This document shows, piece by piece, positions 9,280 to 34,298 of a DNA stretch of 64,000 nt (the first letter of the stretch is position 1; each line of letters begins with the position of its first letter). Made by a program: the position numbers and the translations under genes. The notes beneath the pieces were generated by a model. That model saw nothing but the letters and a program-made list of their open reading frames with translations, did not search any database and was not told the DNA's origin. Origin of the DNA: a virus; IMG/VR virus record IMGVR_UViG_3300049435_000050, positions 1 to 64,000 of that record; one strand, given 5' to 3'.

Positions 9280-9518
9280 AGATACTTGGCAACAGAATAC
9301 TCATTCAACCTACTGAACCAATAGATAAGCTTGAATCAGGTTTATTTCTCCCACAATCAGCCGTCCAAAAACCAAACACCGGCACAGTCATTGTAGTAGG
9401 TACACAAGCAGATGCATTATTAGAAGGTAAGACGGTTTTATACAATCCTGTTATAGCAATAGCTATAATTGATGGAAATCATTTAATTCATCCAACTGAT
9501 ATTAAATTTATTTTATGA
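9276..9518 (+). CDS. GroES-like co-chaperonin (Cpn10)
   Basis: 80 codons. The N-terminus (MKILGNRILIQPTEP) and the segments LPQSA, KPNTGTVIVVG and GKTVLYN follow the Cpn10 beta-barrel pattern. The family is usually about 95 residues, so this is a compact version; the mobile loop that binds GroEL would be around residues 20-33. Phage co-chaperonins such as T4 gp31 adapt host GroEL for capsid folding, and the capsid gene lies 1.7 kb away. Loop sequence and GroEL binding cannot be judged here. Confidence 0.7.
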   Translation: MKILGNRILIQPTEPIDKLESGLFLPQSAVQKPNTGTVIVVGTQADALLEGKTVLYNPVIAIAIIDGNHLIHPTDIKFIL

Positions 9519-10057
9519 AACCCGAATTATCACAGAAATTAATACACGAATTCTTTGATTATAATAATGGATACTTATATTGGAAAAAACCAGTTTCAAA
9601 ATGTAGCCGCATAAAAATTGGTTCTAAAGCAGGGTCAGTAGCTATTGATAGAAGACGCGTCATACGATTTAATAATTGCTTATACCTATCATCCAGATTA
9701 ATATTTTTATGGCATCATGGTTTTATGCCAGAATTCGTTGACCATATTGATAGAAATGGGGTAAATGATAAAATAGAAAATCTTAGAGCTGCTACTCGTT
9801 TACAAAATAATCAAAATTCTACATCGAGAAAATATTCAACTTCAAAATATTTAGGAGTGCATATTTATATAGATAAGCGTCAAAGAAAAAATGGGGTAAA
9901 TAATGCTAAAACTAGATGCATTGCTTCTATTGGAATAAATTGCATAAAAACATACATTGGCATGTTTAAAACAGAGGTAGAAGCGGCGCTTGCATACAAT
10001 AGTGAGGCTGTTAAAAATCACAAAGAATTTGCAAATTTGAACATTATAAAGGTTTAA
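9515..10057 (+). CDS. HNH homing endonuclease with AP2-type domain
   Basis: 180 codons, starting in an ATGA overlap with the GroES-like gene. The HNH part (about residues 50-95) shows VDHIDRNGVNDKIENLR with the catalytic His and Asn pattern. The C-terminal half (about 110-178: SKYLGVHIYI, ALAYNSEA, EFANLNI) is AP2-like and should bind DNA. A relative with the same layout is at 33762. Such genes are selfish elements that cut homologous sites lacking them. Confidence 0.85.
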   Translation: MKPELSQKLIHEFFDYNNGYLYWKKPVSKCSRIKIGSKAGSVAIDRRRVIRFNNCLYLSSRLIFLWHHGFMPEFVDHIDRNGVNDKIENLRAATRLQNNQNSTSRKYSTSKYLGVHIYIDKRQRKNGVNNAKTRCIASIGINCIKTYIGMFKTEVEAALAYNSEAVKNHKEFANLNIIKV

Positions 10058-16233: not shown

Positions 16234-16760
16234 ATTACTCCCTTCTGCATTGCGTTCTTCTCAGCGTACTGCAATAGCCTTGCTGTTTCCTGTCGTACTA
16301 CTTTACGTGTTTCAGAATCGGGGAATATCTGCTTTTCGTAGTCTACAAGCGATTTGTGTATGTCGCCAAGTTGCTTTTCTATATTCATCCTTTCCCGTAT
16401 CGACCGTTCCATATCATCAATGTCCATTGGCTGACGGATATAGCTGGTGATCTGGTGAAAGTTGATGAGCTTGGATTGCCAAATAACGTAGGCAAGGTTA
16501 TCCATGAGCATGAATAGGCTTGTAGCTATTTTGTTGTATTCTAAGTTTTCGCCCTCTGCTATTCTTGGGTATTCAGCGCCTACATGCTTTAAAACTTTTT
16601 TGAGCCTTGACGCATAATCTTCCCTGTCGGCTAACAGGAATGGGCTGTCGTCGCTTATCATCCATATGGCTACCCTTAATAGCTTATCGTCCTCTGTTAT
16701 ACCCTTTAGCGTAGGGTATCTTTCAACCATAGGTTCTTTACAATCAGCGTCATAACGCAT
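16230..16760 (-). CDS. Unknown protein upstream of TerL, possible small terminase
   Basis: 176 codons from ATG at 16760, which lies in the 11-base overlap with the preceding gene; the longer reading begins with TTG. All-helical and charged, with a helical hairpin at about 110-160 (DIDDMERSIRERMNIEKQLG). A helical protein directly before TerL is often the DNA-recognising small subunit, but no helix-turn-helix is evident. Alternative: another packaging accessory protein. Confidence 0.5.
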   Translation of the reverse strand: MRYDADCKEPMVERYPTLKGITEDDKLLRVAIWMISDDSPFLLADREDYASRLKKVLKHVGAEYPRIAEGENLEYNKIATSLFMLMDNLAYVIWQSKLINFHQITSYIRQPMDIDDMERSIRERMNIEKQLGDIHKSLVDYEKQIFPDSETRKVVRQETARLLQYAEKNAMQKGVI

Positions 16761-17526
16761 ACTCAATGTCCTCCACTTTACCTGCTATATCCTTACGATG
16801 TATCACTTCAATATCCCTCAACTCGTCATTTCCTACCTCGTAGCTGATACGAAATCCCCTGTTTTTGTCGATAACTATCCTGTCACCGTGTACCAATTCC
16901 ATTTTTGGTTCATATTCATGTTCCAAATGCGATTTACACGGTTTATCAGCCGATAGTACTGTTCCTTTGTTGCATTCGTACTTATTGTGCGTCCTTGTCA
17001 GTAAAATACCGCTTGAAAGTTCTAAACTGTCAGGCATCTGGTCTCGCAGGAAGAAAACGTATCCATTTACCGGGCGCAGGTCGTTATTTTCGTACACCCC
17101 GTAAATCCTGTCCATTCTTACCATAACACATAGCCCGTAATCAGCCGTTCTAACGAGCCTTACCTCCGTTTCAGCATCTATTTGCTCCCTGTAGTCAAAG
17201 AATACCTTGTCGCCTACCTTAATGTCGAAATTCGCATCAAATTCAAGTGAGTTTCGTACCATTGCGTTAAATTCATCGCCATGTCCATCACCTTTATCAG
17301 CAAAAAACCACTTGTCTTGTGGCAACATTATCACTTTCCCGCTTATAGACAGGTATTTGCTCTTATCCTGATTAAAATAGCTTAGTTGTATGCTTACCTT
17401 CCCGTCAGATGTTGCTATTTCATGAAAATCATATGTTGAATCTGCCTTTATAAGTGCGTAGTTGAATGGAATTATGGCAGTTTTGAGATCAATAGTGTCA
17501 ATCATATATTCAATAGTGTCAATCAT
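16750..17526 (-). CDS. Tandem GroES-like (Cpn10) protein
   Basis: 258 codons. Two halves each read like a Cpn10 barrel: the first about residues 14-130 (IPFNYALIKADS, VGDKVFFDYRE, MVRMDRIYGV), the second about 135-258 (VNGYVFFLRDQMPDS, SSGILLTR, NKGTVLSAD, HGDRIVIDKNRG, EVIHRKDIAGKV). Typical Cpn10 is about 95 residues, so this is a fused pair with longer linkers. Position beside TerL suggests a role in folding capsid or tail proteins with host GroEL. The start codon is duplicated by a 21-base repeat (see findings); ATG at 17505 is an equal alternative. Confidence 0.5.
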   Translation of the reverse strand: MIDTIEYMIDTIDLKTAIIPFNYALIKADSTYDFHEIATSDGKVSIQLSYFNQDKSKYLSISGKVIMLPQDKWFFADKGDGHGDEFNAMVRNSLEFDANFDIKVGDKVFFDYREQIDAETEVRLVRTADYGLCVMVRMDRIYGVYENNDLRPVNGYVFFLRDQMPDSLELSSGILLTRTHNKYECNKGTVLSADKPCKSHLEHEYEPKMELVHGDRIVIDKNRGFRISYEVGNDELRDIEVIHRKDIAGKVEDIEYAL

Positions 17527-19596: not shown

Positions 19597-19798
19597 GGTA
19601 ATGCTCTATAATAATAAAACTAACACTTATAAAAAAGAACGAAGCCCATGTCAAAAATCTATATCTGAAAAAATCTATAATGATATGGTCTGACAATAAT
19701 AAACACTTCATATAAATGCTAACTATTACTAAAAATATCAACATTATAAATGATATTTCTAAAAAGTGGTAAATTATATGTTCTTTAATCCATTTCAT
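19583..19798 (-). CDS. Two-helix membrane protein
   Basis: 71 codons with two membrane helices (about 10-35 and 46-63). It overlaps the methyltransferase start by 14 bases and the upstream gene by 4. It could be a membrane anchor or flippase accessory for the sugar cassette, or a superinfection-exclusion peptide. No motif decides. Confidence 0.55.
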   Translation of the reverse strand: MKWIKEHIIYHFLEISFIMLIFLVIVSIYMKCLLLSDHIIIDFFRYRFLTWASFFFISVSFIIIEHYHESN

Positions 19799-20436
19799 AT
19801 CAGTTCAATTATTTTACTCATATCAGCTTGACCGTTTCCATGCACCAAAACCGGAGTTGTTAATGTTTCTTTGTTAATTATTCTACCATTAACGAAATTA
19901 AAATCTGTCCATAATGTCCCACACAAATTCTGGAAAACTTGGCAATTCGTATCCAATTCCATATCATACTTATAACCTTTAGTTATAAATGTCTTAGCTA
20001 AACACACTTGATCATTATCGATTATAGTTATAGGGTTCTCCTCAAACATACGGCAGAACAGTTCCACACTGACAAATGAAACGCCACCATTAAGGTACTT
20101 GAACCGTGACTTAGTTGATGGGTACAAATACGCCCACTGTTCATAAGGCCATGCATTAATTTCTGCCCCGAACAGTATTACATCCTTGTCTAGGATCCCA
20201 TCCAAAGCCTCCTGCATACTCCCTAACGCGATCACATCGTAAGCGTCAACTATAAATAGGTGGGTACAATCTGTTGTCTTGGCGTAGTTGTAGGCGTTAA
20301 CCATTTTACTGCCGAAAGCCTGATACTGCATACCGCATACTTCCCAATCCCATTCAAACTTTTCAAGTGACCGTACAAGGTTTTTATAACCAGGATGGTT
20401 AAGGTCGGAAACAGTAGTTATTAATTTACATTTCAT
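19795..20436 (-). CDS. PLOD/procollagen-galactosyltransferase-like glycosyltransferase
   Basis: 213 codons, GT-A-like. HLFIVDAYDVI (about residues 59-69) supplies a DxxD metal-binding motif, and KYLNGGVSFVS (about 112-122) matches the LNxG signature of PLOD-type glycosyltransferases. A late Asp (DNDQVCLAKTFI) matches the D-Q pair that closes the active site. Overlaps both neighbours by 4 bases. It probably adds a hexose to a glycan or protein; acceptor unknown. Confidence 0.7.
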   Translation of the reverse strand: MKCKLITTVSDLNHPGYKNLVRSLEKFEWDWEVCGMQYQAFGSKMVNAYNYAKTTDCTHLFIVDAYDVIALGSMQEALDGILDKDVILFGAEINAWPYEQWAYLYPSTKSRFKYLNGGVSFVSVELFCRMFEENPITIIDNDQVCLAKTFITKGYKYDMELDTNCQVFQNLCGTLWTDFNFVNGRIINKETLTTPVLVHGNGQADMSKIIELI

Positions 20437-21221
20437 TCAAAGTCCTCCCAAAGCGGCCTTACACCACTCACATAATCAGCGTGCATCTTATGATATTCAT
20501 CCCAAACTACCCCTGCTTGTTGTTGCTTAACTTGAGTATATGAGTTCTCTCCAGTATCTATATGAGAAATATCAATATGAGGTAAGTAACAATTCCAAAA
20601 ACCTGCCAGTTTTGACCGTAAATCATATATTGAATCATCAAAACCATAAACAGAAGATGGCTGAATCATGCCCCCTATTTTATCAATCAATCGCCAGTTA
20701 AACAGAGTGCATGTGCCCATGATTTGACCACCACCCTCAACTGTTATCCATCGTTGCCCTGCAACATGCGGTAAAGCTATATATTCCCCGTCAAACTCAA
20801 TATCCTTTCGCTTCAAACCAATAATACCAATGGTTGGGTCACGCTCAATAGCGGCTTCCATTTCTTCTACCCATCCTAATTGGTTTATAACTACGTCATT
20901 ATCAATTTTGCAGCAAAATTCTTCCGATTGTCTTAGCTTTAATCCCTGATTGATTGCTCTTGCAGTGCCTAAGTTTTCTGTGTTTGTAATGATATTAATT
21001 CCGTTAATCTTCCATCCGAAGTTTCCAGCAATATTTGTGTTACCTAATTCAAAATACCTTCTTAATAAACTTTTAGTCCGTTCGCAACTTCCATTATCGA
21101 CAATTATAAGCCTATGCTTATCCCAATTAACAGTTTGCGCTAATGACACTAATGTTTTTTCAGTGTATTCACTCCTGCCGTTTTCTTCGGTATCATATAC
21201 AGCACAAATTATCAGACTCAT
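20433..21221 (-). CDS. Family 2 glycosyltransferase (GT-A)
   Basis: 262 codons from ATG at 21221, chosen because GGAGGAG, an unusually strong Shine-Dalgarno for this genome, lies just upstream. Motifs: LIIVDNGS (about 38-45), NLGTARAINQGL (about 84-95) and the metal-binding CKIDNDV (about 103-109). A C-terminal acceptor domain follows. Heads the visible sugar cassette. Confidence 0.8.
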   Translation of the reverse strand: MSLIICAVYDTEENGRSEYTEKTLVSLAQTVNWDKHRLIIVDNGSCERTKSLLRRYFELGNTNIAGNFGWKINGINIITNTENLGTARAINQGLKLRQSEEFCCKIDNDVVINQLGWVEEMEAAIERDPTIGIIGLKRKDIEFDGEYIALPHVAGQRWITVEGGGQIMGTCTLFNWRLIDKIGGMIQPSSVYGFDDSIYDLRSKLAGFWNCYLPHIDISHIDTGENSYTQVKQQQAGVVWDEYHKMHADYVSGVRPLWEDFE

Positions 21222-21517
21222 ACTTGCTCCTCCAACCACTTCTGTATTTTAGCAGTGTTATCCTGCAATTCAGCCAATGTCCGGTTCGGTAAAGTAGCAG
21301 CAAGCTTGGCACATTCAAACCGGGATGGCGCTATTTTCCATGGTTGTTCGTTGAATTTTTTGAACATTTCCTGTAACTCTTTATCGCCCCCGTCTTTGAT
21401 TAAGTTTTCGGTGATTTGGTTTGGCGATACAGAATCACCGGATAATTGATACTCTTTTTTTTCTCGCTCTGTAATCATGCGGATGTTATTGCTAATATCA
21501 GGGTTGAATATATTCAT
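21218..21517 (-). CDS. Unknown helical protein, first full gene of late operon
   Basis: 99 codons from ATG at 21517; an internal ATG at about 21478 is an alternative. Soluble, helical, Lys/Glu-rich. It starts right after the T tract of the leader hairpin and couples by 4-base overlap to the glycosyltransferase. Not recognised. Confidence 0.55.
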   Translation of the reverse strand: MNIFNPDISNNIRMITEREKKEYQLSGDSVSPNQITENLIKDGGDKELQEMFKKFNEQPWKIAPSRFECAKLAATLPNRTLAELQDNTAKIQKWLEEQV

Positions 21518-21614
21518 TTGATAAAAAATAAGCCCGCCAGCCTAAAGTGAAGATAGCGCAAGCAAATCCTAACAATGAAGTGGCTGACGGGAAGTTTTTA
21601 ATATTTTGTTTCAT
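21498..21614 (-). CDS. Possible 38-residue leader peptide / small membrane protein
   Basis: ATG at 21614, stop at 21498: 38 codons with one hydrophobic segment (SATSLLGFACAIFTLGW). It overlaps the next start by 20 bases in another frame. Its start codon lies inside one arm of an inverted repeat and its body encodes the terminator-like stem. It may be a genuine tiny membrane protein or an attenuation leader peptide. Confidence 0.4.
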   Translation of the reverse strand: MKQNIKNFPSATSLLGFACAIFTLGWRAYFLSNEYIQP

Positions 21615-21635
21615 TGTCGTTTTAAATTTGCTTGC
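21520..21635 (-). ncRNA. Structured leader RNA of the late operon (attenuator candidate)
   Basis: In minus-strand RNA, GCAAGCAAAT (21635-21626) pairs with ATTTGCTTGC (21567-21558). Inside it ACAATGAA (21617-21610) pairs with TTCATTGT (21579-21572). CCCGTCAGCC (21591-21582), in the loop, pairs with GGCTGGCGGG (21542-21533), followed by a U-rich tract before the ATG at 21517. The last stem looks like a terminator; its arms place it in pseudoknot relation to the first stem. Confidence 0.6.
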
Positions 21636-21640
21636 TGCTG

Positions 21641-21676
21641 TAAATATACAAACTTATTTGGCACTTTACCAAATAA
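21641..21676 (-). promoter_or_regulatory. Promoter and palindromic operator of the late operon
   Basis: On the minus strand TTTG (21673-21670) lies 21 bases upstream of TATATTTA (21648-21641), near the Bacteroidota consensus. A perfect palindrome, TTATTTGG (21654-21661) and CCAAATAA (21669-21676), overlaps the -33 region and could bind a dimeric regulator. The predicted start falls at the first arm of the leader RNA. Confidence 0.5.
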
Positions 21677-21751
21677 AATTTAAGCCTAATTTTAAGCCAT
21701 GTAATCAATTTTTATATTTTTTGGTATATAGATACCATTTTGAAATAATAA

Positions 21752-21943
21752 TCAATTAGGTGGGCTAAAATAGTCCTCTAATCGCTTAAACCTTGTGTAG
21801 CAATCACTCAACTCAAAGTGTTGTTGCTGGTCTATCAATTCTTTTATCAGTTCTACCATGGATACTCCTGACTTATTGGTAACGCTGTACCATACTCCGG
21901 TTGGCACTTGCTGCAGCTTATTTATGGTTTCTGTTGTGGTCAT
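21752..21943 (-). CDS. Small unknown protein after primase-helicase
   Basis: 63 codons, 11 bases after the primase-helicase stop. Soluble, mixed alpha/beta, Gln-rich (DQQQHFE). Last gene of the replication operon. Not recognised. Confidence 0.5.
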   Translation of the reverse strand: MTTTETINKLQQVPTGVWYSVTNKSGVSMVELIKELIDQQQHFELSDCYTRFKRLEDYFSPPN

Positions 21944-33761: not shown

Positions 33762-34298
33762 ATGAGAGGTAGTCACACCATAACACAAGAACGAGCAGAA
33801 CAACTTTTCAATCATATTGATGGTGTTTTATACTGGAAAATAAAATTGCATAGAGGTGTGGTTATTGGGAAAGAAGCTGGATATATCGATGAAAATGGTT
33901 ATAGGGTGATAGGCCTGGAAGGACAACGCTATAAAAGGCATCAAATTGTTTTTCTTTTGCACAGAGGTTATATTCCAAAAGAGGTAGATCACAGGGATAA
34001 GAACAGGTTAAATGATAGGTTTTCAAATTTAAGGGAAGTGACCCATCAACAAAATTGTTGCAATAAATCTGCCAGAAAGAACAAAACTTCTAAATACATA
34101 GGGGTATCCTTATCGGTACCAAAAAGGGGGCGAACAAAGTGGTTAGCTCAGATTAATACCAATTCTAAGGGATATAACCTGGGGAGATTTGAAACAGAAG
34201 AAGAGGCAGCGGAGGTTTATAATAATAAAGCCCTTGAATTATTTGGAGAATTTGCAAATTTAAATATTATAATATACGCCAACACCACCGAAAAATGA
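33762..34298 (+). CDS. HNH homing endonuclease with AP2-type domain
   Basis: 178 codons, same design as the gene at 9515: HNH core at about 50-95 (VDHRDKNRLNDRFSNLREVT) and AP2-like C-terminus (SKYIGVSLSV, LGRFETEEEAAEVY, EFANLNI). The two are paralogues within the genome and show that the element has moved. Start at 33762; stop overlaps the next gene by 4 bases. Confidence 0.85.
   Translation: MRGSHTITQERAEQLFNHIDGVLYWKIKLHRGVVIGKEAGYIDENGYRVIGLEGQRYKRHQIVFLLHRGYIPKEVDHRDKNRLNDRFSNLREVTHQQNCCNKSARKNKTSKYIGVSLSVPKRGRTKWLAQINTNSKGYNLGRFETEEEAAEVYNNKALELFGEFANLNIIIYANTTEK

Follow-up and report, generated by a model that had tools for sequence, protein, structure and literature searches.

A conserved pseudoknot was found in the leader of the late operon of an uncultured phage, on the minus strand of the 64,000-nucleotide stretch analysed here (the window), which is part of a phage record of 73,185 bases. 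The pseudoknot spans the predicted transcription start to 16 nt ahead of the first late gene, and 16 further leaders have the same topology with largely different arm sequences, so that the existence of the conserved structure is secure. We infer that this 5'-terminal pseudoknot acts in cis, as a gate on expression from a host-type promoter, a reading to which we give a probability of about 0.45. The knotted leader of the late block probably controls gene expression as an RNA switch of a kind not described before.

The window phage appears to be of the Bacteroidota type. Its closest isolate by primase was Cellulophaga phage phi38:1, at about 30% identity, and GTDB genomes yielded no primase or terminase relative, so no host or prophage was found. 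The leader lies between a replication block (primase, DnaD-like) and a minus-strand late block that runs from 21.5 kb downwards and contains a 99-aa gene, GT2 and PLOD-type glycosyltransferases, a methyltransferase, a Cpn10-like gene, the terminase large subunit and the portal. The preliminary description had placed a structured leader at the head of an operon of sugar, packaging and capsid genes, and this was borne out by the glycosyltransferase, terminase and portal genes downstream of the pseudoknot. The first late gene (21218..21517, minus strand) encodes a 99-aa protein of unassigned function with homologues in L019 and L023, and is followed by the GT2 glycosyltransferase gene (20433-21239, minus strand). 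The glycosyltransferase at 19795-20436 (minus strand) carries a PLOD GT domain (E 8e-27), a family best known in animal lysyl hydroxylases. Directly upstream of the packaging genes, a 258-aa protein (16750-17526, minus strand) has a C-terminal Cpn10 (GroES-like) domain, which is also present in the gene behind the L129 leader. Immediately before the late promoter lies a gene for a 63-aa protein family (21752-21943, minus strand) with 44-56% identity in six relatives.

Three inverted repeats, A, B and C, 103 nt in all, were present on the minus strand where they had been described. Repeat A (21635-21626/21567-21558) forms 10 Watson-Crick pairs, or 12 pairs with two G-U pairs, repeat B (21617-21610/21579-21572) forms 8 bp, and repeat C (21591-21582/21542-21533) forms 10 bp including one G-U. 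The arms follow in the order A B C B' A' C', with arm C inside the A-B hairpin loop and C' downstream. Because A/B and C interleave, the structure is a true H-type pseudoknot and not three separate hairpins; the interleaved helix pairs that characterize this class are formed by A/A' and C/C' in the window and in the 16 further members. Read from its 5' end on the minus strand, the RNA opens with the 5' arm of stem A (GCAAGCAAATTT, 21624..21635, pairing with 21558-21569) and the 5' arm of stem B (ACAATGAA, 21610..21617), which holds the start codon of a leader ORF at 21614-21612. An A-rich linker (21592..21609) that ends in TATTAAAAACTT and is similar in relatives whether or not these have the leader ORF leads to the 5' arm of stem C (CCCGTCAGCC, 21582..21591, pairing with 21533-21542). 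There follow the 3' arms of stem B (TTCATTGT, 21572..21579) and stem A (GGATTTGCTTGC, 21558..21569), then a pyrimidine-rich A'-C' linker (GCTATCTTCACTTTA, 21543..21557) with similar counterparts in relatives, and finally the 3' arm of stem C (GGCTGGCGGG, 21533..21542), which completes the pseudoknot.

The promoter ahead of this structure was recognized by its sequence. A -33 element, TTTG (21670..21673, minus strand), whose position is kept in most relatives of the late head, and a -7 element, TATATTTA (21641..21648, minus strand), together give TTTG-N21-TATATTTA, which fits the Bacteroidota -33/-7 consensus TTTG/TANNTTTG (PMC6847099). This match puts the transcription start at the foot of stem A, in agreement with the earlier suggestion that the repeats begin exactly there; stem A begins 5 nt past the -7 box in the window and 3-6 nt past it in relatives. 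A near-palindrome, TTTGGTAAAGTGCCAAA, covers the -33 element (21657-21673) and could be a repressor operator; L023 carries TTTGGTAAAGCCAAA in its place. Another near-palindrome, TGGTATATAGATACCA (21722-21737), is located further up this intergenic region, ahead of the late promoter.

Stacking of helices A (-19.0 kcal/mol) and C (-21.8 kcal/mol) gives the pseudoknot a score of -40.8, the best on either strand of the 64 kb in a descriptor scan for interleaved helix pairs (runner-up -30.7). When the 250-nt upstream region was shuffled 200 times with its dinucleotides preserved, no shuffle reached this score, the best attaining -25.7. The nested fold alone had a z of -2.7, with 2 of 200 shuffles equally good. 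For L023 taken alone, 4 of 200 shuffles matched its score.

Relatives were obtained through primase, terminase and glycosyltransferase searches; a single-sequence scan of viral contigs gave no homologues of either the first gene (99 aa) or the glycosyltransferase gene that comes first in the block, and a scan with the conserved upstream 63-aa gene gave no new leaders. Before any descriptor scan, inspection by eye revealed the same topology at the corresponding head of all eight loci (L019, L021, L022, L023, L002, L017, L010 and L016). Stems were aligned too poorly in a MAFFT alignment of the leaders for a covariance model, so further members were added by descriptor scan and the resulting 17, including the window, were partitioned by hand. 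Among these 17 members, about half of which were first recognized by the same pairing rule that defines them, arms pair 99-100% with their own partner and 46-50% with the arm of another member, and most positions of helices A and C show three to six pair types. The eight pre-scan loci gave the same picture, with 99-100% own pairing versus 58-63% with the partner arms of the window. The preliminary description had proposed looking for compensatory changes in related phages, and the arms co-vary in every relative found, across phages whose terminases are from about 24% to 88% identical to that of the window. The element begins where transcription is predicted to start, and 9-23 nt separate its end from the ATG.

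This covariation bears on whether the repeats act as RNA at all. Short inverted repeats are common in AT-rich DNA and many random two-helix pseudoknots score to about -30, as would suit chance repeats or DNA-level sites for an operator or for recombination. We give this explanation almost no credence: the arms differ among relatives yet keep their pairing, where a DNA-binding site would keep its sequence, interleaved pairs cannot make a cruciform, and upstream of genes such pseudoknots are far commoner than in shuffled sequence. Both the topology and the covariation led us to reject a DNA cruciform or operator.

The isolates Cellulophaga phi38:1, Elemovirus elemoE (partial) and Calle_1 (second half) contained no convincing copy of the element. 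At the curated gathering score, Rfam gave no match in the window or in 12 loci with further copies; weak matches to eukaryotic families, in the leader only and at E 0.89 or worse, were discarded as chance. HDV-like and pistol ribozymes were set aside because the structure has no room for their extra helices.

The 38-residue frame of the preliminary description is present at 21498..21614 on the minus strand (MKQNIKNFPSATSLLGFACAIFTLGWRAYFLSNEYIQP, 38 codons), with its start codon in the 8-bp stem B, and its last 20 nt lie within the first gene. Of the 17 members, 14 have an ATG 10-24 nt past the start of stem A, usually in or beside the 5' arm of stem B. As a frame control, we compared the three frames: the leader frame is open to within 10 nt of the ATG of the next gene in 11 of these 14, the other two in one and none, and over the same stretch the leader frame has 5 stop codons versus 29 and 26. 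Leader ORFs have 33-38 codons and stop from 9 nt before to 20 nt after the next ATG, three of them in ATGA overlaps, so that a conserved short ORF ends at the start of gene 1, as coupling would demand. We read this open-frame pattern as a signature of selected translation and coupling, and since the other two frames are open in only one and no cases, the 38-residue peptide is probably translated. Leader peptides share a loose motif, M[KN]xxxK.[FI]P, before they diverge; part of it could reflect constraint at the RNA level, because members lacking the ORF keep the same A-rich linker. Three knots have no leader ATG (L022, L016a, L004) and three have short frames only (L023, L129, L113), so the ORF is not essential to the element, and the knot is conserved more widely than the ORF. 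Programmed frameshifting from the leader ORF into gene 1 was set aside since their relative frame varies among members. Selection on the frame of a small ORF, on top of the need of its RNA to form a pseudoknot, amounts to an unusual double constraint.

Whole-record scans revealed further copies of the element in the same genomes as the late leaders of the relatives. Upstream of ORFs in eight records (G000-G007), 17 sites scored -32 or better versus 0.85 expected, and more distant relatives had 14 sites versus 1.2 expected. Many of these copies are of a compact form, without stem B or leader ORF, which combines a 6-10 bp helix A and a helix C that mostly measures 8-16 bp with an A-rich linker some 20 nt long, joins that are short, purine-rich and GAA-containing, and a U-rich spacer up to the ATG. 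Behind the extra copies lie, for the most part, genes for free-standing HNH endonucleases (HNH_3, NUMOD4, HNH). A leader at p<=0.01 precedes 7 of the 24 HNH_3 genes in these records, and the window's own two HNH genes (9515-10057 and 33762-34298) are both without one. Compact leaders with strong U-tracts were seen at L182:12261-12341, L164:2832-2755 (minus strand), L156:11856-11784 (minus strand), L158:7933-7863 (minus strand), L158:5893-5969 and L168:7251-7342, as well as in L229 and L231, and many of these sit directly before free-standing HNH genes. The compact leaders are probably a separate RNA motif class. Finding this RNA architecture before mobile endonuclease genes suggests that such genes bring a brake on expression with them.

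Between the pseudoknot and the first gene lies a U-rich spacer (21518..21532, minus strand). The terminator-like U tract noted there earlier (CUUAUUUUUUAUCAA) does exist but is only moderate, with a U-tract score of 3.4 versus a mean of 2.3 at other starts; mean scores are 3.6 for the late-operon copies and 5.1 for the compact copies. The spacer from C' to ATG is 54% T in the late class and 67% T in the compact class, versus 29% T and 41% A at other gene starts. These features bear on a transcription attenuator, in which C-C' and the U-tract would form a pseudoknotted intrinsic terminator that separates the late genes from their host-type promoter until antitermination lifts the block later in infection, with a logic like that of lambda pR'-tR' and Q. 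A host-consensus promoter should fire at once, so something must restrain the late genes, and both the U-rich spacer, unlike the A-rich spacers of other genes, and the compact copies, whose C helices measure 8-16 bp in most cases and whose U-tracts are strong, would suit a terminator. The late-class U-tract, however, is often broken near the helix (TTAATT, TTACTT), 10 of the 17 tracts have no run of five T, and neither an antitermination factor nor a site for one has been identified. Nor is a mutually exclusive antiterminator encoded, as there is no overlap among the arms of A, B and C. The preliminary description had read the leader as an attenuator; the terminator-like helix and U-tract of that proposal are matched by the compact copies elsewhere, but the late copies have a weak to moderate tract and no antiterminator. 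Attenuation by the leader is plausible on these features, though as the primary function of the element we consider it rather unlikely. Terminators inside the first 100 bp of a coding region still function in E. coli (PMC4824070), so translation of the leader need not abolish termination.

We favor instead a gate that works through both the knot and the leader ORF. The RNA would begin at the foot of stem A and fold A-B first, after which C-C' would close just ahead of the U-rich spacer and the first start codon. Once folded, the knot would hide the start site of the leader ORF within arms A and B, and helix C-C', set beside the start region of gene 1, would let few ribosomes enter; the same helix before a U-rich stretch may also pause or stop RNA polymerase, most clearly in the compact HNH copies. 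Ribosomes that start on the leader ORF early in transcription could keep A, B and C unpaired, run through all three arms and stop at the start of gene 1, where termination-reinitiation would hand them to that gene and open the operon. Host polymerase should read the promoter at once, and in this way the knot would restrain expression from it. Candidate triggers for the switch would be a phage protein, free ribosomes or timing. In Flavobacterium, structure around the start codon or initiation region lowers initiation (PMC6847099), and in the absence of a Shine-Dalgarno site such structure is a natural means of control. Direct occlusion of gene 1 would be partial, since its core start region lies beyond the end of the knot.

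Among the closest known systems is the leader of T4/T2 gene 32, an H-type pseudoknot in a phage 5' UTR with an unstructured A/U-rich stretch before the start codon; in T4, knot and tract are bound by the gene's own product, and a 2010 review considered this perhaps the sole viral pseudoknot in autoregulation of translation (PMC3014915). By analogy, a phage protein might bind the pseudoknot and the adjoining A/U-rich spacer as gp32 does, and repress translation. Conservation seems higher in the short single-stranded motifs, the A-rich linker before C and the pyrimidine-rich one before C', than in the stems, and several copies per genome could make a regulon. The T4 knot, however, sits 67 nt ahead of a single gene, whose own ssDNA-binding protein binds it. 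The knot here begins where transcription is predicted to start and stops 9-23 nt short of the ATG; it also overlaps a leader ORF, and the genes that follow it are unrelated. Downstream are an unassigned 99-aa protein with glycosyltransferases, or HNH endonucleases, and not an RNA- or ssDNA-binding protein, which makes autogenous control unlikely and sets the leader of the window apart from the gene 32 type. No binding protein is known, and the leader ORF would be left unexplained, leaving a translational operator improbable in our judgment.

A parallel in genomic setting is given by the stand-alone homing endonucleases Aeh1 mobE and T4 segB, whose leader RNA structures reduce initiation (PMC3014915) and, as here, precede free-standing phage endonuclease genes. 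In mobE a hairpin covers the ribosome binding site, whereas here pseudoknots occur in phages whose likely hosts make no use of Shine-Dalgarno sites, and unlike mobE and segB the same architecture also heads a late operon. That such leaders reduce translation counts against a positive element, in which a 5'-end structure would stabilize phage mRNA or recruit ribosomes or RNA polymerase factors, perhaps through put-like antitermination or as an enhancer whose U-rich spacer binds ribosomal protein S1. A stem A flush with the predicted 5' end, the free spacer and start codon of gene 1, and a location before genes that need high expression would all suit such a role, but the element is also found before genes for HNH endonucleases, whose expression is normally low. 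The put antitermination RNA of HK022 consists of two separate, tandem hairpins that act on RNA polymerase, whereas the helices of the window are interleaved into a pseudoknot. A positive role therefore seems to us improbable as well.

The use of a short ORF also has precedents. In RepY/RepZ of IncI-alpha (ColIb-P9) plasmids, a short leader ORF is coupled stop to start with a second gene, and a hairpin loop pairs just before that gene to form a pseudoknot that activates repZ, needs repY translation and is controlled by an antisense RNA. The late leader shares the combination of leader ORF, pseudoknot and coupling but differs in having its leader start codon inside the knot, and no antisense RNA is known here. 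Like the leader-peptide attenuators of trp, erm and mef/mel, it has a short ORF over RNA structure upstream of an operon and a U-tract after the last helix; unlike them, it shows no exclusive antiterminator helix, regulatory codons or conserved stalling peptide.

We tentatively suggest that these leaders form an undescribed RNA family of Bacteroidota phages, a 5' pseudoknotted lock on host-type promoters that may control both the late operon, where translation of a coupled ORF would open it, and mobile HNH genes. The element could also be of use as a short regulatory part in Bacteroidota, in which Shine-Dalgarno control is lacking. To our knowledge, the delay of late genes in Bacteroidota phages is poorly understood, and our literature search found no paper on it. 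One concrete and testable answer would be a conserved knot in the leader behind a host-type promoter, and if true, a pseudoknot lock would give these phages late timing without a dedicated late promoter or polymerase.
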